Under the pieces are notes generated by a model. The model was given only the letters and a program-made list of their open reading frames with translations, searched no databases and was not told the origin of the DNA. Positions 60 through 11,043 of a stretch of DNA of 64,000 nucleotides are shown here, piece after piece; the stretch's first letter is position 1; each line of letters begins with the position of its first letter. Both the position numbers and the translations under genes were made by a program. The stretch spans positions 1-64,000 of the IMG/VR virus record IMGVR_UViG_3300023174_000052. One strand, 5' to 3'. The DNA comes from a virus.

Positions 60-290
60 ATGCCTGATAAGATCGATAAAATATTTCCAGGTCAGTTAAG
101 GAATTGGGTATCTGGGTCAGACTGGGGCGGTGCAGGACCCTTCGTCATACTGGATTTAAAGGAACATGACTCTCCGGCGACCGACGAGGAACCTGATTTA
201 TGGGTTGAAGTTCTGGAACCTGACGGATATACTGATGAGTATCTCTTGGATGAAGTGATATTGGGGTCCGAGGGTGTCGACGAGGAATAA
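60..290 (+). CDS. small barrel protein, PGQL type (array member 1)
   Basis: Function unknown. This 76-residue protein looks like a small SH3/KOW-like beta barrel and is the first visible member of the paralogous array filling the left 11 kb. PGQLRNW lies at residues 10-16, followed by a hydrophobic strand (PFVILDL), a WVEVLEPDG strand-turn and an acidic tail. An in-frame GTG exists at 9, but GGAGG at 50-54 sits five bases before ATG 60, so the start is placed there. The fold is inferred from motif spacing across the paralogues, not from a hit to a named family. Confidence 0.7.
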   Translation: MPDKIDKIFPGQLRNWVSGSDWGGAGPFVILDLKEHDSPATDEEPDLWVEVLEPDGYTDEYLLDEVILGSEGVDEE

Positions 291-372
291 TTTTTTGTCC
301 CGCGGTGTTCAAATCGAGGGAGTGCGTTAGAGTATAGTTATTAGAGTAACCCAAGAGAGAGGTGATTGACAA

Positions 373-576
373 ATGAGCATGCGAGTATATGACGTCGAGT
401 CTGGACAGTTGAGGAAGTGGAAGGGAACCGTTGATGATACTTTCGTCGTGGCCCGGATTTTCGTAGACAGTTCAGGACCCAAACCCTCGATGTGTGGAGA
501 GTTCGTCGGTGAGAACGGTGAAACGAAGACCATGACGCTGAAGGAAATCTGGGAGAAATCTATCGTCGCAACTTGA
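373..576 (+). CDS. small barrel protein, PGQL type
   Basis: A 67-residue protein of unknown function. SGQLRKW at residues 10-16 places it with the PGQL-type members. Strands TFVVARIFVD and GEFVGENGETKTMTL follow, and the last part is helical and shorter than in its relatives. GAGAGGTGAT lies upstream of the ATG at a workable distance. An 82-base gap separates it from the previous gene and may hold a promoter that I could not define. The next gene is on the opposite strand. Confidence 0.65.
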   Translation: MSMRVYDVESGQLRKWKGTVDDTFVVARIFVDSSGPKPSMCGEFVGENGETKTMTLKEIWEKSIVAT

Positions 577-584
577 TCGCTTGC

Positions 585-983
585 TTATCCTACTCCCTCG
601 TACCCGTTCGAACCAGTTATGACTGTGGATTGTGACGAGGGAATATTTGTTAGACCCGCGATAATCTGGTACTGGACGTTTGTTCCTGCAGAGCAGCTAA
701 TGAATAGTTTGGTGCATCGTATTTCGCCAGAGTATGGTGTGCTCGGTCCTACCGTGAAATAGTTTCCGACTGTTGCACCGAGGCCTCGTTGTGTAAAAGC
801 GATGGCGATTCTATCAGTAGAAGTTGAGGAAACGTTTCGTATCTCGAAGAACCTTGTGACTTGTGGAAACGTGATGACCTGGACACCACCAAGGCTTATG
901 AGAGATGATGTGACGTATGGAACGGCCGATGCCTGGTAAGCAGGGACGTATCCTTCATGCATGTATGGATTGTTTAATGACAT
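585..983 (-). CDS. putative virion protein
   Basis: A 132-residue protein, the only minus-strand gene inside the left plus-strand cluster. It is rich in Ser, Thr, Gly and aromatic residues. The segments FPQVTRFFEIRN, RIAIAFTQRG, NYFTVGP and VQYQIIAGLTNIP suggest a beta-sandwich. Together with the GSNGYEGVG tail they recall small head or fibre proteins of large marine phages, by memory of the pattern only. AGGAG sits just upstream of the ATG. Its direction and composition match the virion genes at the right of the window, and it shares a TTGTAAAA element with two of them. Confidence 0.6.
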   Translation of the reverse strand: MSLNNPYMHEGYVPAYQASAVPYVTSSLISLGGVQVITFPQVTRFFEIRNVSSTSTDRIAIAFTQRGLGATVGNYFTVGPSTPYSGEIRCTKLFISCSAGTNVQYQIIAGLTNIPSSQSTVITGSNGYEGVG

Positions 984-1072
984 TCAATTCTCCTAACAAA
1001 TGTAAATATATGTCCGACTGTGAATGCAGTAACTTAATTTATCATGCCCGGTTCAATTTAAGTTGCAAATAA

Positions 1073-1080
1073 TTTTACAA
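1073..1080 (-). promoter_or_regulatory. TTGTAAAA element upstream of virion gene
   Basis: On the minus strand the octamer TTGTAAAA lies about 90 bases before the virion-like gene ending at 983. The same octamer occurs in the intergenic DNA before the two fibre genes that start at 45164 and 51297. A role as a late-promoter or regulator site is inference from three occurrences. Confidence 0.3.
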
Positions 1081-1084
1081 TTCT

Positions 1085-1122
1085 GTCTGTGTATTCTTCA
1101 CACCCGCCGTGTTAATGTTATG
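1085..1122 (+). promoter_or_regulatory. candidate phage promoter, class A
   Basis: GTCTGTGTA at 1085-1093, a 16-base gap, then TGTTAATGT from 1110. This matches the two-part motif found at 7544, 10129, 36356 and 40060. It sits in the 170-base gap between the divergent gene at 585-983 and the barrel gene at 1154, pointing into the barrel cluster. Confidence 0.5.
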
Positions 1123-1153
1123 ACATGAAGACGCTCAATCTTTGGGGGATGAG

Positions 1154-1378
1154 ATGCTGAGGGTGCTGGGTAAGAACGTCGAAGTGCCACCTGTGAAACC
1201 AGGCCAGCTCAGAAAGTGGTTTGCGCCTGGCGAACAATTCATCATTGTCCTTTCTATTGACGACGACACAGGCCGGTGCATGATTAAAAACATGACGCGA
1301 GGTCACTCCGAATCTTTCAAGATTGAATTCGTTAAAAACGTATCGACGCTGGTCGCCGATGTTGAGACGAAGGAATGA
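1154..1378 (+). CDS. small barrel protein, PGQL type
   Basis: A 74-residue protein with PGQLRKW at residues 16-22, then strands QFIIVLSID and RCMIKNM, and a lysine-containing C-terminal strand. An in-frame TTG lies at 1142, but ATG 1154 follows GGGGGATGAG and is preferred. It opens a coupled run reaching to 2156 and lies directly downstream of a class A promoter candidate. The stop overlaps the next ATG in the ATGA arrangement. Confidence 0.65.
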   Translation: MLRVLGKNVEVPPVKPGQLRKWFAPGEQFIIVLSIDDDTGRCMIKNMTRGHSESFKIEFVKNVSTLVADVETKE

Positions 1379-1572
1379 AACCTGGCGAATTGAGGGAATG
1401 GTTAGAAACAACCGGTATAGACAGTGACGACGCTCAATCTCCATTTTTAATCGTTCGATGCGCCGGAAGTGACGAGATGCAAATCCTCGATAGTCGAGGA
1501 AAGTTATTCTACTACTATGCAGAATACGTTGAGCGCCTTACAAAACCTGTTGGCAAAAATGAAGGTGGGTGA
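1375..1572 (+). CDS. small barrel protein, PGQL type
   Basis: A 65-residue protein beginning MKPGELREW, a variant of the PGQLRxW motif at its very N terminus. Core strands PFLIVRC and MQILD, a SRGK turn and an aromatic strand FYYYAEYVERL follow. ATGA overlap with the preceding gene; its tail overlaps the next gene by 14 bases. Closely resembles the next gene product in layout. Confidence 0.65.
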   Translation: MKPGELREWLETTGIDSDDAQSPFLIVRCAGSDEMQILDSRGKLFYYYAEYVERLTKPVGKNEGG

Positions 1573-1759
1573 AATTTGGACCTGGGTAGAAGACATCGTC
1601 TTGGGGCACTGCGACGTCCGAGGCCCGTTCATCGTCGTGCAAAAAACCTTGAAACGGGTGATGGTGATGGACTCGTCGGGAAAGACGGAGTGGTATTACA
1701 GGTCGACGATGCGAAGAACGGCGAAGAGGGTTACACTTTCTCAAGAGGTGACATCTTGA
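1559..1759 (+). CDS. small barrel protein, PGQL type
   Basis: A 66-residue protein starting MKVGEIWTW, aligned with MKPGELREW of its upstream neighbour. PFIVVQKT, a MDSSGKTEWYY strand-turn-strand and a basic C terminus follow. A longer in-frame reading from 1469 exists but would overlap the previous gene by about 100 bases, and the motif start at 1559 is the natural one. The C terminus carries more arginine and lysine than most members. Confidence 0.6.
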   Translation: MKVGEIWTWVEDIVLGHCDVRGPFIVVQKTLKRVMVMDSSGKTEWYYRSTMRRTAKRVTLSQEVTS

Positions 1760-1908
1760 AACCGAAGTTCGAGAGGGAAGACTCGAAGATGTGGATGGTC
1801 CTCGAGAATTACACGTCAGTCCGTGACATGAAATGTGTGAAGTGCATCGACACAGTGTCTGGTGACATGGGATATTTTATCGAAGTCGAGATGGTGAGGG
1901 TCGCATGA
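1756..1908 (+). CDS. short barrel-like protein
   Basis: A 50-residue protein started at TTG 1756, which overlaps the previous stop as TTGA, with AGAGGTG just upstream. MWMVLENY and KCVKCIDTVSGDMGYFIEVEMVRV look like the last strands of the barrel, but the usual N-terminal motif is missing. It may be a shortened or decaying member. A longer frame reaching back to 1576 would overlap its neighbour almost completely and is not favoured. Confidence 0.45.
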   Translation: MKPKFEREDSKMWMVLENYTSVRDMKCVKCIDTVSGDMGYFIEVEMVRVA

Positions 1909-2156
1909 GCCCAGGAGATTTGGTCGAACTTGTGTGTGAAAACAATATGGTGATGTGGCGATTGCCTGAGGATGGATATACTGGTGATAAGGGCGTCGAG
2001 CATGTAATGTTAAAAGAAGCGAGGGTCGTATACGTCGGTGCCGGAAAAGGATTGACACAGGGATATCCCACATCGAAAGTCTTTTACGACGGCAATGTAT
2101 GGAATTGTTACACGTTAGACATCACTCGATTCAAAAAAATGATGCAAAGGATTTAA
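1905..2156 (+). CDS. barrel protein, GDLV type (long form)
   Basis: An 83-residue protein starting MSPGDLVELV, the first example of the second motif class (KPGDLVxV). It belongs to the longer forms, with an extra segment before the last strands (VFYDGNVWNCYTLDITRF). Coupled to the previous gene by an ATGA overlap. No function can be named. Confidence 0.65.
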   Translation: MSPGDLVELVCENNMVMWRLPEDGYTGDKGVEHVMLKEARVVYVGAGKGLTQGYPTSKVFYDGNVWNCYTLDITRFKKMMQRI

Positions 2157-2195
2157 GGAACTCTACTTCATATTTAGAAATTGAAGGGGTTTGAA

Positions 2196-2516
2196 ATGAA
2201 TAATATCAAACAGGAGATCTCAGACGAACAAATCCAGAAAATAGCTACCGTCGCAGTAGAGTCATACATCAGGGCTCTTGACGGTGAAGGTTTGCTGAAC
2301 GAGAGTGCAGACTATATCCTAACTTATTATTCTATCGTCTCGTATAAAAAGGGATTCTGGGGCTCGTTGGTCGAAAAGTTGTTTAAGATCGACAATGATG
2401 CCTCGCTCTACTTCAGGACAGTGAAACACATTATCCATACCAAAGAGACGCCCAGAAAAGATGGAAGCGACCCGGGAAGATTAGGTCAGGTTATCTCGTT
2501 GCGAGGTGACAAATGA
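2196..2516 (+). CDS. hypothetical protein, helical, not barrel family
   Basis: A 106-residue protein with a helical first half (EQIQKIATVAVESYIRALDGEGLL) and no PGQL or GDLV motif. ATG 2196 follows AAGGGG and is preferred over the in-frame TTG at 2181. A 39-base gap precedes it, and it overlaps the next gene by ATGA, so it is translated with the barrel genes although unrelated to them. Not recognised. Confidence 0.55.
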   Translation: MNNIKQEISDEQIQKIATVAVESYIRALDGEGLLNESADYILTYYSIVSYKKGFWGSLVEKLFKIDNDASLYFRTVKHIIHTKETPRKDGSDPGRLGQVISLRGDK

Positions 2517-2803
2517 AATCTGGTGATATCGTGTGGGTTGGTCCACCTCGAGATTTAATGTATGCCTGGTTTTATCAACACGCCGAAGATAGAAAAGATG
2601 ATATCATGATACCTACGGGCACTCCTCTTATTTACATGAGAAAAATTGAATACCATGAAATGACAGATTGGATGAAGAAACAACTTTCCATCGACGATAA
2701 AAACTGGGGGTGGGTGTTAATATTCTATAATGGTAAGGAATATTACGCACACACAGCTGACATCTCGACGAAGCCTGTGGAGATGCGAACGGACAAACGA
2801 TGA
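2513..2803 (+). CDS. barrel protein, GDLV type (long form)
   Basis: A 96-residue protein starting MKSGDIVWVG. The long insertion contains MIPTGTPLIYM, equivalent to the P-x-G strand of other long forms (4092 and 6457 genes), and the end is WVLIFYNGKEYYAHTADIS. This end pattern, strand-NG-turn-aromatic strand, is the hallmark of the GDLV members. ATGA overlap on both sides. Confidence 0.6.
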   Translation: MKSGDIVWVGPPRDLMYAWFYQHAEDRKDDIMIPTGTPLIYMRKIEYHEMTDWMKKQLSIDDKNWGWVLIFYNGKEYYAHTADISTKPVEMRTDKR

Positions 2804-3012
2804 GGGATAACTCTTACGAAGTTGGTGATATTGCGACCATAGCTTATGTAAAAGGATTCGAGAACGTTTTAATCCTCGAGTCAGACGTAGATTTAGACCA
2901 ATTCGATGGAAAGACATTGCTATGGTCATATAAAGTATCTCTTAGTAATGGAAGGACAATGTGGGTTGATGAACGAGATTTATCGAAAATTGACAAGACA
3001 GGAGGACGTTAG
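2800..3012 (+). CDS. barrel protein, GDLV type
   Basis: A 70-residue protein. YEVGDIATIAYV at residues 6-17 is the motif strand, followed by NVLILES and SYKVSLSNGRTMWVDERDLSKI, with an SNGR turn in place of DG. Coupled by ATGA to the gene before. A GGAGG near its end serves as the ribosome site for the next gene. Confidence 0.6.
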   Translation: MRDNSYEVGDIATIAYVKGFENVLILESDVDLDQFDGKTLLWSYKVSLSNGRTMWVDERDLSKIDKTGGR

Positions 3013-3013
3013 G

Positions 3014-3226
3014 TTGTTTGGTGAAGTGATACCTGGACAGCTTCGAAAGTGGACGGGAGATTCGGGAAACTCAGGAGCAATTATGATTCTCGGAGTTAAG
3101 GAATATCCAGCCGACGACTGCGCATCTAATTTATTACTCGTAGAATACCTAAACGAAAATGGAATCCGAGGAGAAATCGAATCTTTCTTCTTTAAACTCT
3201 GGACCAGCCCGATGGATGGGCAGTAA
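3014..3226 (+). CDS. small barrel protein, PGQL type
   Basis: Started at TTG 3014, eight bases after GGAGG at 3001-3005; a longer frame from 2906 would overlap the previous gene by 100 bases. The product is 70 residues, with IPGQLRKW near its N terminus, AIMILGVKEY and LLLVEYLNENG strands, and an acidic-aromatic tail. Other alternative starts nearby cannot be excluded. Confidence 0.6.
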   Translation: MFGEVIPGQLRKWTGDSGNSGAIMILGVKEYPADDCASNLLLVEYLNENGIRGEIESFFFKLWTSPMDGQ

Positions 3227-3227
3227 A

Positions 3228-3443
3228 GTGAACTTCGAAACGCAAATGCCCGACTATGAACCTGGCGAGCTCGTCATGATCAAAGCTGGTTATACGCGTG
3301 CTGGCGTTGCAGGTCCTGGTATGGTCGTAAAGAGGAGAAAAGGTGGAGAATCCCACTCACCAGAGTTTTTGAAGTATGACGTGTTGTTCGAGGACGAGGT
3401 CATCATGATGTATGAATATGAATTCACAAAATTTAAGTCATGA
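3228..3443 (+). CDS. barrel protein, GDLV type
   Basis: YEPGELVMIKAG marks the family. PGMVVKRR, YDVLFEDEVIMMYEYEFTKF follows, with ED replacing the DG turn. The start is uncertain: ATG 3216, GTG 3228 and ATG 3246 are all in frame, and GTG 3228 has GGATGGG seven bases upstream, so it is used. Ends four bases into the next gene (ATGA). Confidence 0.55.
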   Translation: MNFETQMPDYEPGELVMIKAGYTRAGVAGPGMVVKRRKGGESHSPEFLKYDVLFEDEVIMMYEYEFTKFKS

Positions 3444-3646
3444 CAGAAATAAAACCGTCCCAGCTATGGAAGAGTAAAAGACCAATTTGGGTAAGTCCGT
3501 CGGTGACAAACGAATGCGTCATGATAAAATCCACTTCTCAATTTGAAGAATTATACACTGTTGTTACTTTTTTTAGTTTTGCGTCGAAAACAGACTTTCA
3601 CATGGAACTCGAAGAATTTAGAGAGTCGTATGAAATAGTGAAGTAA
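3440..3646 (+). CDS. divergent barrel protein, PGQL type
   Basis: A 68-residue protein with IKPSQLWKS, a divergent form of the PGQL motif. CVMIKS and YTVVTFFSFASK strands follow, then an acidic helix or strand ending ESYEIV. One of the most divergent members, so assignment rests on position, size and the SQLW signature. Its last base is the first base of the next start codon (TAATG). Confidence 0.5.
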   Translation: MTEIKPSQLWKSKRPIWVSPSVTNECVMIKSTSQFEELYTVVTFFSFASKTDFHMELEEFRESYEIVK

Positions 3647-3888
3647 TGCGACCACCATACCCAAAAATCAGTGTTGGTTCCATCGTTAAGGTCATAGTAG
3701 CACCAGACCAGAGCAAGTACGTTATGCAAAGACTCTGGGGTAAATATGGCGTCGTGCTCCAGAACGTCATCACAACTTCATCACCGTCACTGTACGAAGT
3801 CTACCTCGAAGATGGAAGCACCTGGACTCTTCACTATCTCGATTTAGAAGTGGTCTCCGAGAAAAATAGTTCACTCTCGCTATGTTAA
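3646..3888 (+). CDS. barrel protein, GDLV type
   Basis: An 80-residue protein. ISVGSIVKVIV is the first strand, GKYGVVLQNV the second, and YEVYLEDGSTWTLHYLDLEVV the typical final hairpin with an EDG turn. TAATG overlap with the previous stop. The cluster then breaks for 55 bases that contain a weak promoter-like match. Confidence 0.65.
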   Translation: MRPPYPKISVGSIVKVIVAPDQSKYVMQRLWGKYGVVLQNVITTSSPSLYEVYLEDGSTWTLHYLDLEVVSEKNSSLSLC

Positions 3889-3911
3889 TTTTCAGCGACA
3901 TGTATTATGTT
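3878..3911 (+). promoter_or_regulatory. weak class A promoter candidate
   Basis: CGCTATGTT at 3878-3886 partly matches GTCTGTGTT, followed after 14 bases by TGTATTATG at 3901. Both halves deviate and the spacing is one or two bases short, so this is the weakest of the six candidates. It partly overlaps the end of the preceding gene and lies 33 bases before the next ATG. Confidence 0.3.
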
Positions 3912-3943
3912 ATGGATAGAAATGTAACCACACGAGGCATATA

Positions 3944-4099
3944 ATGGACAAAGTATTGACCAATGAATACTTCGAGAAGAGAAAACTGGAGCTCAAACAT
4001 TGTATTGAGAATGGTCTCGTCTTTTATTACACAACCCAGGACGACAGGGAATATATCAAGCTCCTCGAACAGGAAATCAAACGGTTGAAGAATGACTGA
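3944..4099 (+). CDS. short hypothetical protein
   Basis: A 51-codon open frame that fills the gap between barrel genes. It reads MDKVLTNEYFEKRKLELK, then CIENGLVFYYTTQDD, and ends in a charged helix with LEQEIKRLK. It has no barrel motif and may form a short coiled coil. It ends eight bases inside the next gene, typical of real coupled genes here. ACGAGG lies nearby upstream. Confidence 0.5.
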   Translation: MDKVLTNEYFEKRKLELKHCIENGLVFYYTTQDDREYIKLLEQEIKRLKND

Positions 4100-4382
4100 T
4101 AATAACACCTGTTATAGGTTTAAACCTGGCGACCTCGTGAAGGTAAACAAAACCAGGTTCGATAATACGACAATCGATAAGAACTATACCCTTTTACGAA
4201 GCTCGAACCTGGATGGTGACGAAAATAGGGTAACGACGACTGTAAGAGTGCCACGTGGCGAGCCTGTTTTCATCGTCGATTACTTTAATAAAGAAAATCC
4301 GGGATTACATGTCAAATGGTACGTCATGTATCAAGAAAAAATCTGGTGGGTCTATGAAAGTGAACTCGAAGCGACAGTGTGA
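4092..4382 (+). CDS. barrel protein, GDLV type (long form)
   Basis: A 96-residue protein with FKPGDLVKV at residues 10-18, the long-form PRGEPVFIVDYF strand, and an end reading WYVMYQEKIWWVYESELE. It matches the gene at 6457 most closely in overall plan. It overlaps the next gene by 29 bases. Confidence 0.65.
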   Translation: MTDNNTCYRFKPGDLVKVNKTRFDNTTIDKNYTLLRSSNLDGDENRVTTTVRVPRGEPVFIVDYFNKENPGLHVKWYVMYQEKIWWVYESELEATV

Positions 4383-4617
4383 CTTTAACTTTAATGTCGG
4401 AGACCTCGTCATCGTAGAGACAACGGATTTCCCGTCTAAAACAGGAGTCATCACTCGTGTACGATGGTGGGACAGGTTCGATTATCCTGATGATTCTGTC
4501 GAAATCGACGTTTTTATAGATGGTCGAATCCGAGGTCCTTTCATGTTCGCCGACCTTAAAAAGGTGGGTGATTCTAAAAACTGTTCCACGAGTTACGAAC
4601 CATGCAAAATGAAGTGA
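4354..4617 (+). CDS. barrel protein, GDLV type
   Basis: An 87-residue protein with FNVGDLVIVETT, TGVITRVRWWD and DVFIDGRIRGPFMFADLKKV, ending in a Ser/Lys tail. The frame is open back to 4255, but ATG 4354 with GGTGGG upstream gives a normal N terminus. The final 16 bases overlap the following gene. Confidence 0.6.
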   Translation: MKVNSKRQCDFNFNVGDLVIVETTDFPSKTGVITRVRWWDRFDYPDDSVEIDVFIDGRIRGPFMFADLKKVGDSKNCSTSYEPCKMK

Positions 4618-4805
4618 CATTTTCACCCGGCGAATTGGTTGAAGTCGTCTTTTCTCGTAACGAAATTCACCATGCTGTCTACCTCAGGCGAGCACATGTG
4701 AAATATACAAAATTTCAAATACCACATGAAGTCTTTTTTAACGGTGATGTATTCCATGTATACGATGGAACCATAAGAAAAATTAAGGGAGATAAAGATG
4801 AATAA
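4602..4805 (+). CDS. barrel protein, GDLV type
   Basis: A 67-residue protein: FSPGELVEVVF, VYLRRAHV, then PHEVFFNGDVFHVYDGTIRKI. The final hairpin has NGD at the turn. Its C terminus contains the ribosome site GGGAG of the next, unrelated gene, with which it overlaps by eight bases. Confidence 0.6.
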   Translation: MQNEVTFSPGELVEVVFSRNEIHHAVYLRRAHVKYTKFQIPHEVFFNGDVFHVYDGTIRKIKGDKDE

Positions 4806-5118
4806 GACACAGAAAAAGACGGTGACTTTCTCGTTGACAAAGAACGAATTGCTCGAAGCAATCAGCGATTACATTCTCCTCGAGACCGGTGAATTGCACA
4901 CCGACCTTTCATATGTCTGTATGAACAGTGACGGCACTGTCGTAGTGAGCAAGACCTACAACGAGGAAGAGAAAAAGAAAGAAATGGAAAGTAGCGTGGA
5001 ATTCATCGAGGACTCCGACGAAAATCATGAAAGTCCCTTCGAAAACGACACGATGAATAACTGTGGCGTGACCCCCGGAGTCATGTCATACATCAAGAAA
5101 CACATCACCTCGCGATAG
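4798..5118 (+). CDS. hypothetical acidic protein, not barrel family
   Basis: A 106-residue protein. The first half reads VTFSLTKNELLEAISDYILLETGEL, then MNSDGTVVVSKTY; the second half is acidic and probably disordered (MESSVEFIEDSDENHESP), with a short C-terminal helix. GGGAG is placed well before the ATG. No relation to the barrel family, but embedded in its operon. Not recognised. Confidence 0.6.
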   Translation: MNKTQKKTVTFSLTKNELLEAISDYILLETGELHTDLSYVCMNSDGTVVVSKTYNEEEKKKEMESSVEFIEDSDENHESPFENDTMNNCGVTPGVMSYIKKHITSR

Positions 5119-5122
5119 AGAT

Positions 5123-5332
5123 ATGCAAACTGGCGTTAAACAGGGTCAACTAAGGGTCTGGTCAAATCCACAGTGGGGTGATTGTGGTTCTACGTTCTTC
5201 GTAGTTGGTCAAGTAGTTTCTGGTCCTGACTCTGACATGCTTCGAGTTCAATGGTATATTCACAGTGCTGAAGAAGGGGTGTCCACCGTTCCAGAGAGTG
5301 ATATCATCAAAGACTCGAAGGTGTTACGGTGA
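5123..5332 (+). CDS. small barrel protein, PGQL type
   Basis: A 69-residue protein with VKQGQLRVW at residues 5-13, TFFVVGQVV and LRVQWYIHSA strands. It forms an adjacent pair with the next gene, sharing GQLRVW and the TFxxV strand, and may reflect a recent tandem duplication. GTGA overlap with its neighbour. Confidence 0.65.
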   Translation: MQTGVKQGQLRVWSNPQWGDCGSTFFVVGQVVSGPDSDMLRVQWYIHSAEEGVSTVPESDIIKDSKVLR

Positions 5333-5526
5333 AAATTGAACCAGGTCAATTGAGGGTGTGGTGTGAAAAAGACGGGGAACATTGGGCTAATCGGTATGGT
5401 CGTACTTTTTTAATCGTCTGTAGACAAAAAAATCCCATGTCACCGAACTGGTACGTATACACGAAGGTGGGAATAAGACTTCTTTACGAGAGATACATCA
5501 GTGAATCCTCTGAGTTGCTAAAATGA
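5329..5526 (+). CDS. small barrel protein, PGQL type
   Basis: A 65-residue protein begun at GTG 5329, overlapping the previous stop. IEPGQLRVWCEKDG, RTFLIVCRQ and NWYVYTKVGIRLLYERYI show the same plan as the gene before it. The central DG turn is replaced by KVG. Confidence 0.65.
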   Translation: MKIEPGQLRVWCEKDGEHWANRYGRTFLIVCRQKNPMSPNWYVYTKVGIRLLYERYISESSELLK

Positions 5527-5732
5527 GACACTATAGGGACGGCGAGTTAGTGGTTATAAAAGACGACTACTATCCATCAATATTCCGTAATGAAAAGGCG
5601 ATTGTCATGTTTTCTAAACAAGTCTTCAAGGATGAAAACAGTTATCGAGACTATAAAGTCTTCGTCTTTAAGAATGGGCACACAATGTTAATTTCAGGAC
5701 GTGACATCGAATCCATCGAGGGGGATGAATGA
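5523..5732 (+). CDS. barrel protein, GDLV type
   Basis: A 69-residue protein: YRDGELVVIKDDY, KAIVMFSK, YKVFVFKNGHTMLISGRDIESIEG. The KNG turn and closing DIESI align with DLE of other members. ATGA overlap on both sides. Confidence 0.65.
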   Translation: MRHYRDGELVVIKDDYYPSIFRNEKAIVMFSKQVFKDENSYRDYKVFVFKNGHTMLISGRDIESIEGDE

Positions 5733-5989
5733 AAGACGAACGACAACCAATCTTCTATACAACTGAACCAATTTTCGGTTGTTCACAACCCGTCAGAAAG
5801 GGAGACATCCTCAAGATTAGACAGTGCGGGAGCGCGTTCCTCGTCACGGGCGACAAGACGTTCTATCCACTCGAGTTTCTGGACGAGGACGCCGATTTTG
5901 ACCCTCCACCATTCATCGAAGGATTAGTAGATGGAGAAATCCAACGAGTGTGCATAGCGGACCTCGAGGCGTTGGTCGATGAATACTGA
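5729..5989 (+). CDS. barrel protein, GDLV type, N-terminal extension
   Basis: An 86-residue protein in which the motif strand RKGDILKIRQ starts at about residue 23 after an extension containing FYTTEPIFGCSQP. The closing FIEGLVDGEIQRVCIADLEALV is typical, with a DGE turn and DLE. The role of the extension is unknown. Confidence 0.6.
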   Translation: MKDERQPIFYTTEPIFGCSQPVRKGDILKIRQCGSAFLVTGDKTFYPLEFLDEDADFDPPPFIEGLVDGEIQRVCIADLEALVDEY

Positions 5990-6254
5990 ACCTGAAGAAT
6001 TGGGATTTGATAAGAACGGAATCCCGAGTTCTCAGCCCCTCTATAAAACTCGTCCACACCGAGGACGTCGCCACCCTGAGAAGAAAGGGAAGTGGGTCTA
6101 CATGGCGTGTTATTATTGGGATGATAGGGGGAACGCACGAGGAGTCAATTATAATTGGGCGACGAGACTCATAAAATTGGGTCACCGTGTTGGAAAATTG
6201 TCCTGGGAAGCAACAACTGAATACTATTTCTTTGTGAGTGATGACAAGAAATGA
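5979..6254 (+). CDS. hypothetical protein, not barrel family
   Basis: A 91-residue protein that overlaps the previous gene by 11 bases and the next by four. It is basic in the middle (RPHRGRRHPEKKGKW), then rich in aromatic residues (YMACYYWDDRGN, WATRLIKLG, EYYFFVS). No motif of the barrel classes is visible. Not recognised. Confidence 0.5.
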   Translation: MNTEPEELGFDKNGIPSSQPLYKTRPHRGRRHPEKKGKWVYMACYYWDDRGNARGVNYNWATRLIKLGHRVGKLSWEATTEYYFFVSDDKK

Positions 6255-6460
6255 AACCCGGTGACCTCGTACGGTATAAGAAGAGATACGAATGGCGATC
6301 AGAGTTCCAGTCTGATGGTGTACTCACCGGACTCTTGATTAGGGACGTCACACAGGAATATGGATCTAACAATAATCGAAATGACGAGATGTTCGAAGTC
6401 CTGTTTGGAGAAGAATCGGTAGTCATGTACAAGTACGAGATTGAACTGGTGACCGAATGA
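6251..6460 (+). CDS. barrel protein, GDLV type
   Basis: A 69-residue protein and the first of three consecutive genes starting exactly MKPGDL. TGLLIRDV and FEVLFGEESVVMYKYEIELVTE complete the pattern. The three genes are joined by ATGA overlaps, so this stretch looks like serial duplication with divergence of the middles. Confidence 0.75.
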   Translation: MKPGDLVRYKKRYEWRSEFQSDGVLTGLLIRDVTQEYGSNNNRNDEMFEVLFGEESVVMYKYEIELVTE

Positions 6461-6702
6461 AACCAGGCGACCTCGCTCGGTTCGTTCGAGAAAACACAGA
6501 ATCAGACCACGTGATGGTCATCAGCGTCAATGACATTGGTTCGGACGAATACGTGCCCGTCGGTGAGTTAGTCGTCTTTCTGGGTGTCAGTAATGAAGCC
6601 GACAGGGTGTTTGGAAGAACACCTCATGAAACATGGGTGAAGATTTTTTGGAGAGAATCCACGTGGTACGCCTACGCCTCAGACCTTGAGGAAGTATCAT
6701 GA
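6457..6702 (+). CDS. barrel protein, GDLV type (long form)
   Basis: An 81-residue protein: MKPGDLARF, then VPVGELVVFLGV, then WVKIFWRESTWYAYASDLEEV. The P-x-G strand and WYAY end group it with the genes at 1905, 2513 and 4092, which suggests that long forms are a sublineage spread through the array. Confidence 0.75.
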   Translation: MKPGDLARFVRENTESDHVMVISVNDIGSDEYVPVGELVVFLGVSNEADRVFGRTPHETWVKIFWRESTWYAYASDLEEVS

Positions 6703-6923
6703 AACCCGGTGACCTCGTGAGAGTCCTCAATTGTGACAATGAGTATGAACACGATGAATACTCAGGTCAGGTCGGAGTCTTAGTCGACATCGACACACAC
6801 AATAATATACGCCAGTTATTGGGGGCCGTCAATGTCTACGTCGTTATGTTAAATGGTTATGAACCCGCCTACTTCTACGAACATGAAATAGAATTAGTCA
6901 GTGAGTGTGTCAAAGATGCGTGA
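6699..6923 (+). CDS. barrel protein, GDLV type
   Basis: A 74-residue protein: MKPGDLVRVLN, GQVGVLVDID, VYVVMLNGYEPAYFYEHEIELVSE. It closely resembles the gene at 6251 in its ending (YEIELV / HEIELV). Overlaps the next start by eight bases. Confidence 0.75.
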   Translation: MKPGDLVRVLNCDNEYEHDEYSGQVGVLVDIDTHNNIRQLLGAVNVYVVMLNGYEPAYFYEHEIELVSECVKDA

Positions 6924-7146
6924 CTGTCTCGGATTCGAAAAGAACATCGGGAAACTCGTACGTGTTCCCGATTGTCGACCAAACGATTTGTCAGAGCATC
7001 CAGGAATCATCATCGATGTGTCAATAGACGACGACCACGACACATACCTTGGAATTGACATCGAGTCTTTTGTGAGATACACAGTCATGTTTCCTACAGG
7101 TCTTGAAATAATTTTTGGGGATGAAATTGAAATTCAAGAAGGGTGA
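6916..7146 (+). CDS. barrel protein, GDLV type (degenerate motif)
   Basis: A 76-residue protein with NIGKLVRVPDC in place of KPGDLVRV, PGIIIDVSID, and YTVMFPTGLEIIFGDEIEI. Started at ATG 6916, since the alternative GTG at 6901 extends deeper into the previous gene. The loss of the conserved Asp in GDLV is notable. It overlaps the next gene by 26 bases. Confidence 0.6.
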   Translation: MRDCLGFEKNIGKLVRVPDCRPNDLSEHPGIIIDVSIDDDHDTYLGIDIESFVRYTVMFPTGLEIIFGDEIEIQEG

Positions 7147-7294
7147 CCTCGTTACGACATTCACAGACTTTCGAAGACTAAAAGGAATCGTGATGGACGT
7201 AACCGTGGGTGGTGAGTACAAGGTCTGGTGGTACGACTTGAACGACTGGGACATCTTCGGAGGGTCTGAGATGGAACACTTTACAGATGGATGA
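7121..7294 (+). CDS. short barrel protein, GDLV type
   Basis: A 57-residue open frame starting ATG 7121: MKLKFKKGDLVTTFTDF, LKGIVMDVTVGG, YKVWWYDLNDW, ending MEHFTDG. It overlaps its neighbours by 26 and 8 bases. Size is at the low end for the family, with the variable loop almost absent. TTGGGG lies upstream. Confidence 0.65.
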   Translation: MKLKFKKGDLVTTFTDFRRLKGIVMDVTVGGEYKVWWYDLNDWDIFGGSEMEHFTDG

Positions 7295-7529
7295 AACGAA
7301 GTTCGAAATCGGAGAACTCGTGTGGTATCCTGTATTTGATTCCAATGATACGGCGTCACTATGCCCAGGCGTCATCATCGAACTGGACGAGGACAAAGAC
7401 GCCATCTACGCCGATGAGAGGTTATCGGCTCGCCGGTTATATCGAATAATGGGGGAACACACCGAAGAAGAATCATGGTTCTATTCCTGGGAGATTATGA
7501 AGTTCAATCCGAGTAACACACCAGAATAA
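7287..7529 (+). CDS. barrel protein, GDLV type
   Basis: An 80-residue protein: FEIGELVWYPVFD, PGVIIELDED, a charged loop, YRIMGEHTEEESWFYSWEIMKF. It is the last gene of the run that begins at 3944. A 63-base gap with a strong class A promoter candidate follows. Confidence 0.65.
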   Translation: MDETKFEIGELVWYPVFDSNDTASLCPGVIIELDEDKDAIYADERLSARRLYRIMGEHTEEESWFYSWEIMKFNPSNTPE

Positions 7530-7543
7530 AATATTTTCAATAT

Positions 7544-7576
7544 GTCTGTGTTAAAAAACGGGATATGTGTTATATT
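7544..7576 (+). promoter_or_regulatory. candidate phage promoter, class A (best example)
   Basis: GTCTGTGTT at 7544-7552, 15 bases, then TGTTATATT at 7568-7576. It lies entirely in intergenic DNA 16 bases before the next ATG and points into the next run of barrel genes. The left half is identical to those at 36348-36356 and 40052-40060 on the minus strand. Confidence 0.55.
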
Positions 7577-7592
7577 GATTTAGGAGATTGAG

Positions 7593-7769
7593 ATGTCCCT
7601 TTTCAAGGTGGGTGACCTCGCACAGGGCATGTCAGACGATGGTCCAGTCATCGTGATTATCACAGGTTCTAAACGAAAAGAATTTTGGAAAGAAACTTTT
7701 TACGATGTGTTTTGGAAAGGTAATACCTACGAACTCGCCGAGTGTTATCTAAAACGTTTAACTGATTAG
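7593..7769 (+). CDS. short barrel protein, GDLV type
   Basis: A 58-residue protein: MSLFKVGDLAQGMSDDG, PVIVIITG, YDVFWKGNTYELAECYLKRL. First gene after the promoter candidate at 7544; TAGGAG is correctly spaced before the ATG. Compact form without a long central loop, most like the next gene. Confidence 0.7.
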   Translation: MSLFKVGDLAQGMSDDGPVIVIITGSKRKEFWKETFYDVFWKGNTYELAECYLKRLTD

Positions 7770-7778
7770 GAGTCCAAG

Positions 7779-7952
7779 ATGTCTCGGTATAAAGAAGGCG
7801 ACCTCGTGAGGGTGATTTTGAACGATTGTGGATTACCCATGGTCGTCACACGTTCAATCTGGAACCTTGAATATCGTGAGATGCACTATGAAGTCTATCG
7901 TGATGGAAAGACCTACACTCTCTCCGAGAACTGGTTAACGAGGGTAACTTGA
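7779..7952 (+). CDS. short barrel protein, GDLV type
   Basis: A 57-residue protein: MSRYKEGDLVRVILNDCG, LPMVVTRS, YEVYRDGKTYTLSENWLTRV. Residue for residue it follows the plan of the gene at 7593 (MS-x-x-K-x-GDL, then YxVxxxG-x-TY-x-L), so the two are a likely recent tandem pair. GGAG upstream of ATG. Confidence 0.7.
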   Translation: MSRYKEGDLVRVILNDCGLPMVVTRSIWNLEYREMHYEVYRDGKTYTLSENWLTRVT

Positions 7953-8161
7953 CGTTCCAGAAGGGGGAACTCGTCATGGTCAAAGAGAGAAATGGTTACG
8001 GATACTCATGGGCATTGACGAAATTCGTCGGTCGGGCGGGTATCGTGACGATGACTCTTCTCGATAAGAACGAGCGAAAACCCGACAGTCAAATCATGGT
8101 CTATTTCCCAGATGGAAAAGAATTTTTCTTCTTCGAAGAAGAACTGGTCAGACTACGATGA
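7949..8161 (+). CDS. barrel protein, GDLV type
   Basis: A 70-residue protein begun at TTG 7949, overlapping the previous stop as TTGA, with GAGG just before. FQKGELVMVKERNG, GRAGIVTMTLL, IMVYFPDGKEFFFFEEELVRL; the closing hairpin is unusually rich in phenylalanine. ATGA overlap with the next gene. Confidence 0.65.
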   Translation: MTFQKGELVMVKERNGYGYSWALTKFVGRAGIVTMTLLDKNERKPDSQIMVYFPDGKEFFFFEEELVRLR

Positions 8162-8391
8162 AAACGATAGGAAAAATAGAATCGCTCAAACTCGTCAGGA
8201 TTAAAAAGTCTGTCAGTATCACTCACAGTCTCCCGACGAGTATTGGTGTCTGTGTCCGTCCACTCACCCAACAAGAGATTACGGACGAGGGATACGACCC
8301 GAAAGGTGTCACCGACCCACCATGGTTCGTCCATTTCAAAGAGACAGGTCCCGTCATCGTATTCCAGGACGAACTCGAGGAAGTTCGATGA
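8158..8391 (+). CDS. barrel protein, GDLV-related
   Basis: A 77-residue protein whose first strand (ESLKLVRIKKS) lacks the PGD turn, but IGVCVRPL and WFVHFKETGPVIVFQDELEEV reproduce the rest of the barrel pattern. Coupled by ATGA overlap on both sides. Confidence 0.6.
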   Translation: MKTIGKIESLKLVRIKKSVSITHSLPTSIGVCVRPLTQQEITDEGYDPKGVTDPPWFVHFKETGPVIVFQDELEEVR

Positions 8392-8630
8392 AAACCGATA
8401 TAAAGGTGGGTGACCTTGTATGGGTTGACCGGTCGACGTTCGATTCCAGGACCGAAGATACTCCCGGCGTCGTCGTGGGAATCGAGTGCGAGTGGGACGA
8501 CGGTGAACCCCCAGGTATGTTTTTGACGACGTGGATTGAGATACTATTCGGAGACGGGACTGTAGAGACCTGGGACTCAGACATCGTGAATCACCTGGGA
8601 AATTACACTGGTGAATGGACTGGGGAATAG
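8388..8630 (+). CDS. barrel protein, GDLV type
   Basis: An 80-residue protein: IKVGDLVWVDRSTF, PGVVVGIECEWDDG, WIEILFGDGTVETWDSDIVNHL. ATG 8388 overlaps the previous stop as ATGA, so the longer frame from 8322 is not used. The N-terminal GDLVWV resembles the genes at 7287 and 2513. Confidence 0.65.
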   Translation: MKTDIKVGDLVWVDRSTFDSRTEDTPGVVVGIECEWDDGEPPGMFLTTWIEILFGDGTVETWDSDIVNHLGNYTGEWTGE

Positions 8631-8631
8631 A

Positions 8632-9000
8632 ATGTGGGAATACATGTTATTTAAAGACATGATAGCGTTAACCATCTCATCCTTTGTCTTCCTGTTCACT
8701 GTCCTATTCATTATGAAGGTTTTAAACATTTACCATGTGCATACCAAGGTTGGGCGTCCGAACCCTCCAAAGCCTCATAATGTAACGGAATGGGACCCGA
8801 TTCCACAAGGTTCTCTGGTGAAGGTAAAGACGCCGGATGACCCGATGTTCAGGTCTCGCTGGGATGGTCTGACTGGGTTCGTCACAGGAGTCAGCGAGGA
8901 TGGAATTTGGTATAACGTCATGTTCGTATCGAAAGAGAGCATAATGACCTACCAAGTTTTCAAGAGGTCTGACCTCGAATACATCAGGGATGTAAATTGA
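8632..9000 (+). CDS. membrane-anchored barrel protein
   Basis: A 122-residue protein that joins an N-terminal membrane segment (about residues 9-31, ALTISSFVFLFTVLFIMKVL) to a C-terminal barrel with QGSLVKVKTPDD, LTGFVTGVSEDG, WYNVMFVSKESIMTYQVFKRSDLEYI. By the positive-inside rule the barrel side is hard to call. It is the only clear fusion of the array domain to a membrane anchor. GGGGAA lies before ATG 8632; an upstream ATG at 8611 would overlap the previous gene. Confidence 0.65.
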   Translation: MWEYMLFKDMIALTISSFVFLFTVLFIMKVLNIYHVHTKVGRPNPPKPHNVTEWDPIPQGSLVKVKTPDDPMFRSRWDGLTGFVTGVSEDGIWYNVMFVSKESIMTYQVFKRSDLEYIRDVN

Positions 9001-9233
9001 AGGGCCGAACAAAAATTAAAAAGGCGAAACCAGGTCAGGTGAGAGAGTGGAGGTACAGGCACGATGACATCCCATTTGACCCGAATCTGGATATATTTTT
9101 TGTCGTCGAAGAGTGCTCGATAGTGCATGGTCCGAATAGTTCATCTGAAGGGGTCAGGGTGATGTATCCGGATGGGTTCATAACAGAACACCATAAACGA
9201 GAACTCGAGCGTGATTCCATCGTGATTGTATGA
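8997..9233 (+). CDS. small barrel protein, PGQL type
   Basis: A 78-residue protein begun at TTG 8997 (TTGA overlap). AKPGQVREWRYRHDD, IFFVVEECSIV, VRVMYPDGFITEHHKRELERDS. It has both the PGQ-type N terminus and the strand-PDG-strand-EL ending typical of GDLV members, which supports a common fold for both classes. Confidence 0.65.
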   Translation: MKGRTKIKKAKPGQVREWRYRHDDIPFDPNLDIFFVVEECSIVHGPNSSSEGVRVMYPDGFITEHHKRELERDSIVIV

Positions 9234-9469
9234 AACCCGTAGAACCAGGACAGTTACGCAAGTGGATTCCTGAATGTGATGTTGGATTTGGACCGTTCGT
9301 AGTCCTCGACGTCATGAGAAAAATCGACGGAATGAAAGAGTTTTTGTGCCTCGACGAAATGGTAGTCCGTGTAATGTATGGAGACGGTCGAGTGATAAAC
9401 CACGGATTCCTGGGGATGGACGAGGATTCTTTTTTATTGGATGACGAGAACCACGATGTTTCGATTTAA
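9230..9469 (+). CDS. small barrel protein, PGQL type
   Basis: A 79-residue protein: VEPGQLRKWIPECDVG, GPFVVLDVMRK, VVRVMYGDGRVINHGFL, acidic C terminus. VRVMYGDG matches VRVMYPDG of its upstream neighbour, suggesting tandem duplication. ATGA overlap upstream. Confidence 0.7.
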   Translation: MKPVEPGQLRKWIPECDVGFGPFVVLDVMRKIDGMKEFLCLDEMVVRVMYGDGRVINHGFLGMDEDSFLLDDENHDVSI

Positions 9470-9686
9470 ACCCGGCGACCTCGTGAAGGTAAAGGGCGAC
9501 GTCATGATAGAGAGGATAAACTTATCCGGTTCTTCGGCGTTAGTCACCGGGTTCGAACATGATAACATGACCAAAGATTTACACGAAGTGTTAAATCGAG
9601 AGATTCCTTATATTATTATCTGTGGGGGCATAGAGACATATGCCTGGGACGAAGAGTTAGAAGAATTTCCAGTGGAGGATGATTGA
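9456..9686 (+). CDS. barrel protein, GDLV type
   Basis: A 76-residue protein: MFRFKPGDLVKVKGDVM, SALVTGFEHD, IPYIIICGGIETYAWDEELEEF. ATG 9441 is also in frame; 9456 is taken because it gives the usual N terminus. Overlaps the previous gene's end by 14 bases. Confidence 0.65.
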   Translation: MFRFKPGDLVKVKGDVMIERINLSGSSALVTGFEHDNMTKDLHEVLNREIPYIIICGGIETYAWDEELEEFPVEDD

Positions 9687-9694
9687 GTTTTCCG

Positions 9695-9817
9695 ATGCCG
9701 TGGGCGGATTTTTTTAGTCTGGTGGGGCAGTTCCTAATCGGTTCTCTTGCCATTATTATCGTAATTGCCATAATCACCTGGTTAATGGGTGTTTTTTTCG
9801 TCGGGTACAAAAAGTGA
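9695..9817 (+). CDS. 40-residue single-pass membrane protein
   Basis: A 41-codon open frame in a 137-base gap. MPWADFFSLVGQF leads into about 24 hydrophobic residues (IGSLAIIIVIAIITWLMGVFF) and ends GYKK, as expected for one transmembrane helix with a positive C-terminal end. Size and shape are those of small phage membrane peptides, but no function can be assigned. It stops seven bases before the next start. Confidence 0.5.
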   Translation: MPWADFFSLVGQFLIGSLAIIIVIAIITWLMGVFFVGYKK

Positions 9818-9823
9818 CTGGGG

Positions 9824-10114
9824 TTGAGAGTGCCAATAATAGAATGGAAAGGTGAACCGTTCCCGACAAACGGTGAATTTTATTATGAATCTCCGTTAGA
9901 ATTAGGCTCGCTTGTCCAGACGACAAAGGACGTGTTCGTGTGGACGGGTACCAGTGTGTATTCTGCCGTTTCGTCTCCTGTCAACGTAGAGATGGGAACG
10001 AAAGGTGTCGTATTAGAAAAGGACCAGCACAATACTTCGTTCCTGAATCATGAACGTGTCATGTTTGAGGGAGTAATCGGATATGTGCCCAGGAGATTTT
10101 TAGTTCTCCTTTAA
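9824..10114 (+). CDS. barrel protein, GDLV-related
   Basis: A 96-residue protein begun at TTG 9824 after CTGGGG. A 20-residue leader precedes YESPLELGSLVQTTKDVFVW, then GTKGVVLEKDQ and RVMFEGVIGYVPRRFLVLL. GSLV replaces GDLV. The last gene before a 65-base gap with a promoter candidate. Confidence 0.55.
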   Translation: MRVPIIEWKGEPFPTNGEFYYESPLELGSLVQTTKDVFVWTGTSVYSAVSSPVNVEMGTKGVVLEKDQHNTSFLNHERVMFEGVIGYVPRRFLVLL

Positions 10115-10128
10115 ATTATTTCTCCATT

Positions 10129-10162
10129 TTCTATGTCCACTGACGGTGAAACATGTTATTTT
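10129..10162 (+). promoter_or_regulatory. candidate phage promoter, class A
   Basis: TTCTATGTC at 10129-10137, 16 bases, then TGTTATTTT at 10154-10162. The right half matches well, the left half at six of nine positions. It occupies the intergenic gap just before the membrane protein at 10180. Confidence 0.45.
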
Positions 10163-10179
10163 ATCTCTGTGAGGTATAG

Positions 10180-10410
10180 ATGTGGTTCCCGATAGCATGG
10201 TTAAGTCTCGGGTTTGCACTGAAGTGGATTCGTGAAGCTTTCGAAAATTTTGATAAAAAATGGGGAGATAAAATGCTCAATGTTCTCTTGATTGTCCTGT
10301 CTTTTGCACTCATCGTTACGCTCGTCGGTGCGCTCAAAGTGACGTGGGGGATTCTCTCCATCTGTTTCCTGTTCTGGTTTTTAATTTGCCTCATGATTAA
10401 GGCGAACTGA
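10180..10410 (+). CDS. two-helix membrane protein
   Basis: A 76-residue protein with one hydrophobic stretch at residues 1-14 (FPIAWLSLGFAL), a charged loop (REAFENFDKKWGDK) and a long hydrophobic region at about 33-72, which could be one or two passes. Resembles phage holin-like or other small membrane proteins in shape only. Lies first after a promoter candidate and is joined to a barrel gene by TGATG. Confidence 0.5.
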   Translation: MWFPIAWLSLGFALKWIREAFENFDKKWGDKMLNVLLIVLSFALIVTLVGALKVTWGILSICFLFWFLICLMIKAN

Positions 10411-10613
10411 TGTTTAAGCCTGGCGACCTTGTGAAGGTAAGAAAAATGACTCGATACTCTCCCAACTCTAAAGACCCTCGTGAAATCGGCGGAGTGGGTG
10501 TAGTTGTCAACGTGAGTGTAGAATCTGGTAGTTTGATTCATTGGTATGATGTATATGTTAATGGACTAATTGTCAATGATATCATTGATGATAGGGTCAG
10601 TGAATATGTTTAA
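10410..10613 (+). CDS. barrel protein, GDLV type
   Basis: A 67-residue protein: MFKPGDLVKVRKMTRY, GVGVVVNVSVE, WYDVYVNGLIVNDIIDDRV. Its ATG overlaps the stop of the membrane protein (TGATG), so the two are likely translated together. Confidence 0.7.
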   Translation: MFKPGDLVKVRKMTRYSPNSKDPREIGGVGVVVNVSVESGSLIHWYDVYVNGLIVNDIIDDRVSEYV

Positions 10614-10622
10614 TGGTTGAAA

Positions 10623-10868
10623 ATGAAAAATAAAAGAATTAATCACGATGACGATTTAGAACCTGGGACTCTTGTACAGGTCATCGAAGATTACGACGGC
10701 GAAAACATCGTGAAAAAATCTGGAGTCGTTGTATCTCTTGAACACAGGACGTTTAATAAACTCTCAGGCGTTGCGTATGATGCGAAATACAAAATCATGA
10801 CTGCTGATGGTGTTAAAGAATACTTTTGGATTGACCTTTCAACTTTAGATGGGGAAGAAGATGTTTGA
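10623..10868 (+). CDS. barrel protein, GDLV-related
   Basis: An 81-residue protein: LEPGTLVQVIEDYDG, KSGVVVSLEHR, YKIMTADGVKEYFWIDLSTL. GTLV replaces GDLV while the ADG turn and DLS end are kept. ATG 10623 is chosen over the in-frame TTG 10617; neither has a strong ribosome site. Confidence 0.6.
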   Translation: MKNKRINHDDDLEPGTLVQVIEDYDGENIVKKSGVVVSLEHRTFNKLSGVAYDAKYKIMTADGVKEYFWIDLSTLDGEEDV

Positions 10869-11043
10869 GAATGGTGACCTTGTTAAGGTTGTAAAGATGG
10901 AACACTCTCGATTTGGTCATACGGGAGTCTTCTTGCATGAATATACTGTTCCGAATATAAAATTAGAAAAACCCCTCTTTAAAGTCCTTATCGATGGAGA
11001 GATTAGACTCATGCTCCTTAACGAGTTGGAACGGATTAAGTAA
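10861..11043 (+). CDS. barrel protein, GDLV type
   Basis: A 60-residue protein: MFENGDLVKVVKMEH, HTGVFLHEYTV, FKVLIDGEIRLMLLNELERI. The start at 10861 follows GGGGAAGAAG and overlaps the previous gene by eight bases; an in-frame ATG at 10849 would add four residues. Last member of the plus-strand array. Confidence 0.65.
   Translation: MFENGDLVKVVKMEHSRFGHTGVFLHEYTVPNIKLEKPLFKVLIDGEIRLMLLNELERIK

Follow-up and report, generated by a model that had tools for sequence, protein, structure and literature searches.

The left end of a viral record in IMG/VR, IMGVR_UViG_3300023174_000052, raises the question of why a phage should keep several dozen small genes side by side on one strand when their products have little in common besides their two ends. 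We analysed the first 64 kb of this 175,594-bp record (hereafter the window). A block of plus-strand genes at positions 60‒11678 is isolated at the left edge, and from 11.7 kb to the end of the record almost all genes lie on the minus strand. The block contains 49 open reading frames (ORFs) over 11.7 kb with a coding share of 93%, forming a small-gene cluster of the kind seen in the SPO1-type host-takeover module. Adjacent ORFs overlap by at least 1 nt in 33 of the 48 pairs and by exactly 4 nt in 18, in agreement with the ATGA, GTGA and TTGA overlaps described in an earlier note on this sequence. Since the array starts right at the record edge, it may be truncated or extend past the record.

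The array genes are paralogous and arranged in tandem. Each of 39 candidates was scored by a hidden Markov model (HMM) built from the other 38 and compared with 1339 controls, namely 364 further ORFs from this genome and 975 shuffled member sequences of unchanged composition. This leave-one-out test supported 36 of the 39 (empirical p < 0.007), most of which outscored every control, while g36 (start at 8158) was marginal (p = 0.043) and g08 (1756) and g25 (5729) failed. Since a homologue of g25 in the relative G002 (27% over 73 residues, E = 2e-5) scores 32 bits in the family model, g25 is counted as a member. The earlier observation is confirmed, its count of about 39 being revised to 36‒38. 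The family HMM is almost silent across the other 164 kb of the genome, where it finds one extra paralogue at 40071‒40277 on the minus strand. Many tandem homologues whose copy number varies between relatives are also what characterizes tandem viral multigene families.

The members have diverged to a mean column identity of only 12% and fall into at least two types. The PGQLR-W subtype, with 10 supported members, scores poorly with a model built from the GDLV type only. The two profiles nevertheless align end to end in hhalign (P = 6e-4, probability 29%), and the two types are therefore likely, from their sequence profiles, to belong to one family.

The GDLV type is predicted to form an SH3-like barrel, on the basis of one modelled member, g29. 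Its AlphaFold2 model, built from a 49-row alignment, is a five-strand barrel (residues 6‒9, 25‒33, 45‒51, 56‒60 and, after a short helix, 64‒66) with a predicted local distance difference test score (pLDDT) of 85.6 and a predicted template modelling score (pTM) of 0.71. The nearest solved folds in Foldseek are the SH3-like barrels PetP (E = 1.4e-3), nitrile hydratase beta and YorP of Bacillus phage SPbeta (PDB 2heq), with E values from 1.4e-3 to 2e-2 and TM scores of 0.60‒0.68, yet none of the three has a significant sequence relation to the array proteins. PetP is a photosynthetic subunit, and YorP has, to our knowledge, no known function. Sub-threshold profile matches are likewise mostly SH3-like (uL24, CarS and bL19). 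The PGQLR-W member g40 was modelled with moderate confidence (pLDDT 72) as three strands, and its best Foldseek E value is 0.6. The earlier description of the proteins as SH3/KOW-like thus stands in its SH3 half, as a prediction. KOW membership was rejected: the best match to Pfam KOW (PF00467) in the whole genome reaches 11.3 bits against a cut-off of 22.3, with one member at E = 0.014. Among the structural matches in BFVD, several have accession stems in common (A0A516L..., A0A516M..., A0A8D9C...), a hint that further phages contain more than one barrel copy.

Arrays of the same family are present in related phages. The carrier was assigned to the Far-T4 group of myoviruses, as defined in PMC4360716, because of its capsid, portal, terminase, UvsX, helicase and polymerase; PHROG matches cover the gp23-type capsid, portal, terminase and UvsX. 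The capsid protein has relatives at 61‒71% identity in IMG/VR and at 32‒49% in cultured or deposited phages, including RM378 and immuto. It led us to related IMG/VR contigs, several of which proved to contain arrays when scanned with the barrel HMM. An iterated HMM over the fetched loci yielded 525 barrel genes in 46 loci, window included, at a cut-off of 12 bits that none of 4167 shuffled ORFs reached. Barrel genes never occur on both strands of one locus. At this cut-off the window holds 35 members, and other member-rich loci, for which the earlier note suggested a search, include L160 (32 members in 11 kb), L142 (23) and L149 (21). Between phages, copy number ranges from a few to about 37.

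When cultured phages were searched by tblastn with members or consensus sequences, no array was convincing. By HMM, no more than three neighbouring matches occur in Pseudomonas phage Roomu-2, of which two are weak or modest, and Yappy, EG103P3 and phiPMW have one match each. The best family match in T4 (E = 0.012) is unconvincing, S-PM2, P-SSM2, phiM9, PAK_P4 and RM378 have no HMM match, and Flavobacterium phage immuto has none that is convincing. Searches of Pfam, PHROGs and PADLOC assigned no family to the barrels and revealed no functional theme among their neighbours, and a search for Rfam RNAs gave nothing above chance.

In the relatives, neighbouring barrel genes meet in a conserved DNA seam. 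Of 275 adjacent pairs, 146 have an overlap of exactly 14 nt. The consensus from positions -12 to +20 around the junction is TGGAGGTGATCA(A/G)TGAAAGTCGGTGATCTGGT, with information near background on either side. It contains GGAGGTGATC, which is complementary to the 3' end of 16S rRNA. The consensus reads ...LEVIxESR-stop in one frame and MKxGDLV... in the other. The C-terminal LEVIxESR codons of one gene encode the Shine-Dalgarno sequence of the next, with MKxGDLV as its start. Paralogues on the same contig are 75% identical in DNA across the 28-nt seam, compared with 27% in the gene middle. Genes ahead of a 14-nt seam carry the EVI tail in 52% of cases, those with a 4-nt junction in 12% and those not followed in 20%, so that the apparent protein conservation partly reflects a conserved translation signal. 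The earlier note had attributed the two kept ends to a stable barrel; this explanation is incomplete, because in the relatives the ends are also a DNA device carrying a Shine-Dalgarno sequence and the next start. In the window itself, Shine-Dalgarno-like tetramers precede 16 of 39 close starts, compared with 19% of random positions.

The seam also serves as a DNA signature for locating such loci. A pattern search of IMG/VR returned 41 stretches on about 37 contigs, and all 34 contigs searched after a seam match carry several barrels (4‒21 at E ≤ 0.001), of which the search design itself accounts for one per contig but not for the others. A related capsid protein of gp23-like type is encoded by several of the largest seam contigs (G041, G054, G056, G061 and G073, each >140 kb), but not, at this search sensitivity, by G068 (147 kb) or G047 (135 kb). 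Among 84,980 bacterial and archaeal genomes (257 Gb), the pattern occurs in one stretch, in a Flavobacteriales assembly. Some contigs of this metagenome-assembled genome (L183, DQKQ01000147.1) belong to a Far-T4-like phage and bear barrel seams. The genome also includes a terminase 59% identical to that of the present phage, indicating that phage contigs are included in the assembly, which may hint at the host or may reflect binning contamination.

Change in the arrays occurs mainly through whole-gene gain and loss. A single barrel cassette of 176 nt distinguishes L142 from L143, which are otherwise 99.7% identical; in the longer allele the cassette has a perfect 20-nt copy of ATGAAAGTCGGTGATTTGGT on both sides, and the shorter allele has one copy. 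L177 is likewise set apart from L173 by one barrel, of 172 nt, with a near-perfect repeat of 24 nt, and L159 from L149 by 3.6 kb with five barrels and 15 nt at the junction. Clean indels are also present away from barrel seams, for example in L151/L158 and L142/L144. Over all 332 breakpoints, 13% lie no more than 25 nt from a barrel start, where 6% would be expected, so that the seam is a preferred exchange site but not the sole one. G037 and G022 have a few array genes in common, including two adjacent barrels with ~92% nucleotide identity, while most of both arrays is unalignable. Pairs at 40‒95% identity number 7 within contigs and 149 between contigs, so that the arrays look drawn from a common pool rather than freshly duplicated in place. 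A tyrosine recombinase (PF00589) was absent from eight records, which may be fragments, with 14 of 14 controls positive. Exchange presumably proceeds through the phage's own UvsX-type recombination.

Individual barrel genes are under purifying selection, loops included. The ratio of nonsynonymous to synonymous substitution rates (dN/dS, by the Nei-Gojobori method) is 0.23 overall across 63 homologous pairs from related phages, with 0.25‒0.30 in loops and 0.13‒0.28 in strands; the pairs are not independent and dS is partly saturated. These values argue that single genes are maintained and weigh against both junk and loop diversification. The proposal of variable loops under selection, made in the earlier note, is not supported, as the loop values indicate constraint.

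What, then, is the array for? We consider it an even chance that the single-domain SH3-like barrel genes of the block make up an expandable array and encode a reshuffled repertoire of host-directed, possibly anti-defence, binding proteins. Each cassette would end in the signal that starts the next gene, and homologous recombination between seams could add, remove or duplicate any cassette with frame and translation intact. A phage lineage could thereby reshuffle its repertoire fast. The products would be small, mildly acidic binding proteins co-produced early in infection (early expression is assumed), each binding its own host protein, either a defence protein or a takeover target, chosen through its loops and barrel faces. 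Function is the least certain step of this explanation, and the role as inhibitors of host factors or defence proteins suggested in the earlier note is a reasonable guess.

Two phage systems provide precedents for such a role. Nip of Bacillus phage phi3T, encoded in an early-expressed region, binds and inhibits the SpbK TIR NADase; it is a protein of 279 residues with two predicted SH3-like domains and an HU-like domain, in an operon with another counter-defence gene (PMC11984713). Like the array products, Nip is a phage protein with predicted SH3-like domains, a likeness of predicted fold, but it is single-copy and multi-domain. SPO1 carries a 26-gene host-takeover module, which resembles the array as a contiguous, dense set of small phage genes with products presumed to act on host targets; its genes are, however, not described as one family, several are toxic, and no seam mechanism is described (PMC6873191). 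The members of the array are mildly acidic, with a median isoelectric point (pI) of 5.3, a median net charge of -2 and a net charge above +1 in only 2 of 39, and no virion genes are among the families listed for neighbours in related arrays. Together, the Nip and SPO1 precedents, the acidic charge and the accessory-type neighbours favour a host-directed binding repertoire.

The mode of exchange has parallels outside these systems. In integrons, short repeated junctions permit whole-gene gain, loss and reordering of cassettes in a one-directional array. The barrel array likewise has short repeated junctions, is one-directional and exchanges whole genes. It differs in that no tyrosine integrase was found (eight records), all cassettes have one fold, and the junction, placed where coding sequences overlap, supplies the ribosome-binding site and start. 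Multigene families of large eukaryotic DNA viruses, such as those of African swine fever virus and of poxviruses, are tandem, terminal, copy-number-variable paralogues linked to host interaction, but they concern other viruses, hosts and folds, and we know of no coding seam of this kind in them. Tandem viral multigene families and phage takeover modules are known kinds of system; an array built from one fold and joined by a seam that is dual-coding and recombines is new as far as could be tested. The earlier note knew of no described system of this size, and we likewise found no description of such arrays in the open-access literature, subscription journals and preprint servers being outside the search. 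At somewhat less than even probability, the locus may represent a recombinase-independent phage cassette system, with single-fold binders as cassettes, a dual-coding seam acting as both translation coupler and homologous-recombination site, and a changing, host-targeting repertoire drawn from a shared environmental pool.

Several observations count against a seam-shuffled, host-directed repertoire. The exact 14-nt consensus seam is absent from the window, where junctions are mostly 4-nt overlaps (18 of 48) and two are of 14 nt, and where start-region DNA is 51% identical compared with 28% downstream, a difference partly due to shared amino acids. Since the seam is weaker in the window, cassette exchange in this phage is inferred from relatives. 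The positive selection expected of an arms race is not seen within orthologues (63 pairs), and no member matches a known anti-defence family, the PADLOC models being models of defence rather than anti-defence. Promoter-like sigma-70 sites are at chance level (19 vs 20.3), no solved structure matches g29 at Foldseek E ≤ 0.001, and the neighbour genes in related arrays are mostly nucleotide kinases, endonucleases, ATPases or genes with no match.

Another explanation is that the barrels are nucleic-acid-binding proteins of KOW or SH3-like type that act jointly on phage or host DNA or RNA, like MotB of T4. MotB has a predicted N-terminal KOW domain, binds DNA and alters H-NS binding (PMC7827196). 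It shares with the array the SH3-like/KOW-type fold and the status of an early gene of a T4-type phage, and the weak profile similarity of the barrels to the ribosomal SH3-like proteins uL24 and bL19 is consistent with this explanation. However, MotB is a single two-domain DNA-binding gene without an array, T4 lacks a convincing family match, and the array members score below the KOW cut-off and mostly have an acidic charge, which disfavours general nucleic-acid binding. We consider a joint action on nucleic acids unlikely.

Near-neutral or selfish accumulation, in which seam recombination makes or imports mostly idle copies, would fit the clean seam-flanked gain and loss of genes, the very different repertoires of related phages and the lack of diversifying selection. 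Such accumulation seems to us to have only a small chance of being correct, since the low dN/dS and the long retention of homologues at 60‒95% identity, as well as ORFs that stay intact across 11 kb of the window, speak for maintenance of the genes. It is rather improbable that the many copies share one function, either for dosage or as subunits of one large assembly such as a sponge, shell or scaffold: one fold, one strand and tight packing would suit this, but the column identity is low, the number of copies varies widely between phages, and members of the same phage are hardly more alike than those of different phages. Finally, that the shared ends are a chance similarity of motifs in unrelated small phage proteins, as their shortness, the highly variable loops and the weak link of the PGQLR-W subtype to the GDLV type might suggest, is very improbable, since most members outscore all 1339 controls, each locus keeps its barrels to one strand with no shuffled ORF scoring, the HMM finds arrays in other phages, and the confident fold prediction already contradicts it for the GDLV type.

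If the array is indeed a host-targeting repertoire, it would represent a natural library in which a phage carries dozens of binders on a common scaffold and aquatic phages together carry hundreds, and each binder would likely point to an undiscovered host factor or defence protein. The seam would offer a concrete mechanism for swapping accessory phage genes without breaking the operon.

Table 1. Barrel genes of the array, the extra paralogue and the other ORFs of the block, with window positions. Bits for array members are leave-one-out HMM scores.
Feature	Position	Strand	Evidence
g01, PGQLR-W type	60..290	+	15.4 bits, above all controls
g02, PGQLR-W type	373..576	+	17.2 bits
small non-barrel ORF in array	802..939	+	no Pfam match
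small Cys-rich non-barrel ORF in array	917..1072	+	no Pfam match
g05, PGQLR-W type	1154..1378	+	13.0 bits
g06, PGELR-W type	1375..1572	+	20.4 bits; overlaps g05 by 4 nt, g07 by 14 nt
g07, VGEIW type	1559..1759	+	22.5 bits
g08, doubtful member	1756..1908	+	1.1 bits, p 0.27, unsupported
g09, barrel member	1905..2156	+	9.0 bits
non-barrel ORF in array	2196..2516	+	no Pfam match
g11, barrel member	2513..2803	+	10.0 bits
g12, barrel member	2800..3012	+	7.6 bits, p 0.007
g13, PGQLR-W type	3014..3226	+	10.5 bits
g14, barrel member	3246..3443	+	26.9 bits
g15, barrel member	3440..3646	+	6.8 bits, p 0.005
g16, barrel member	3646..3888	+	19.8 bits
small non-barrel ORF in array	3944..4099	+	nothing above cut-off
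g18, barrel member	4092..4382	+	26.3 bits
g19, barrel member	4354..4617	+	12.8 bits
g20, barrel member	4602..4805	+	14.9 bits
acidic non-barrel ORF in array	4798..5118	+	nothing above cut-off
g22, QGQLR-W type	5123..5332	+	17.5 bits
g23, PGQLR-W type	5329..5526	+	21.2 bits
g24, barrel member	5523..5732	+	11.1 bits
g25, member via homologue only	5729..5989	+	fails leave-one-out; homologue in G002
g26, non-barrel ORF, sub-threshold C-terminal Tad2-like (Thoeris anti-defence) match	5979..6254	+	PF11195 E 0.041, 14.9 bits vs cut-off 25
g27, barrel member	6251..6460	+	25.6 bits
g28, barrel member	6457..6702	+	29.2 bits
g29, GDLV type, predicted SH3-like barrel	6699..6923	+	29.9 bits; AlphaFold2 pLDDT 85.6, pTM 0.71
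g30, barrel member	6916..7146	+	14.4 bits
g31, barrel member	7121..7294	+	14.2 bits
g32, barrel member	7287..7529	+	16.5 bits
g33, barrel member	7593..7769	+	9.3 bits; nearest paralogue g34, 35%, BLASTP E 2e-9
g34, barrel member	7779..7952	+	20.6 bits
g35, barrel member	7949..8161	+	26.0 bits
g36, marginal member	8158..8391	+	3.9 bits, p 0.043
g37, barrel member	8388..8630	+	22.4 bits
g38, hydrophobic (probably membrane-anchoring) segment, then barrel	8632..9000	+	22.6 bits; sequence
g39, PGQVR-W type	8997..9233	+	14.6 bits
g40, PGQLR-W type, moderate-confidence predicted structure	9230..9469	+	21.2 bits; AlphaFold2 pLDDT 72
g41, barrel member	9456..9686	+	16.8 bits; overlaps g40 by 14 nt
single-span membrane peptide in array	9683..9817	+	sequence
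g43, barrel member	9830..10114	+	7.7 bits, p 0.004
hydrophobic membrane protein in array	10180..10410	+	sequence
g45, barrel member	10410..10613	+	22.6 bits
g46, barrel member	10623..10868	+	19.1 bits
g47, final array member	10861..11043	+	27.8 bits
solitary extra barrel paralogue, MSLKPGDLVKW... start, directly upstream of DnaE-type DNA polymerase gene	40071..40277	-	held-out HMM E 0.001; HMM match E 7.6e-5

Beyond the last barrel, the block ends (11113‒11678, plus strand) with a proline/alanine/valine-rich membrane peptide and a member of the PHROG 'protease' family phrog_15610. Two minus-strand genes of the window encode a GroEL (17787‒19403) and a NolO-like carbamoyltransferase (32750‒34513). 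A 1019-residue protein at 45393‒48452 (minus strand) contains passenger-associated-transport repeats of autotransporter type (Pfam PATR, E = 4e-14), which are unusual for a phage structural region, and a 2522-residue ORF at 51785‒59353 (minus strand) has no PHROG or Pfam match. Further along the record, the large subunit of ribonucleotide reductase is split into two ORFs (L003:9271‒13058, record G000 at ~73.3‒77.1 kb, minus strand), with a 265-residue ORF without a Pfam match between the halves. The facing ends of the two ORFs match halves of the Pfam intein splicing domain (positions 2‒93 and 116‒155), and the arrangement is apparently a split intein.

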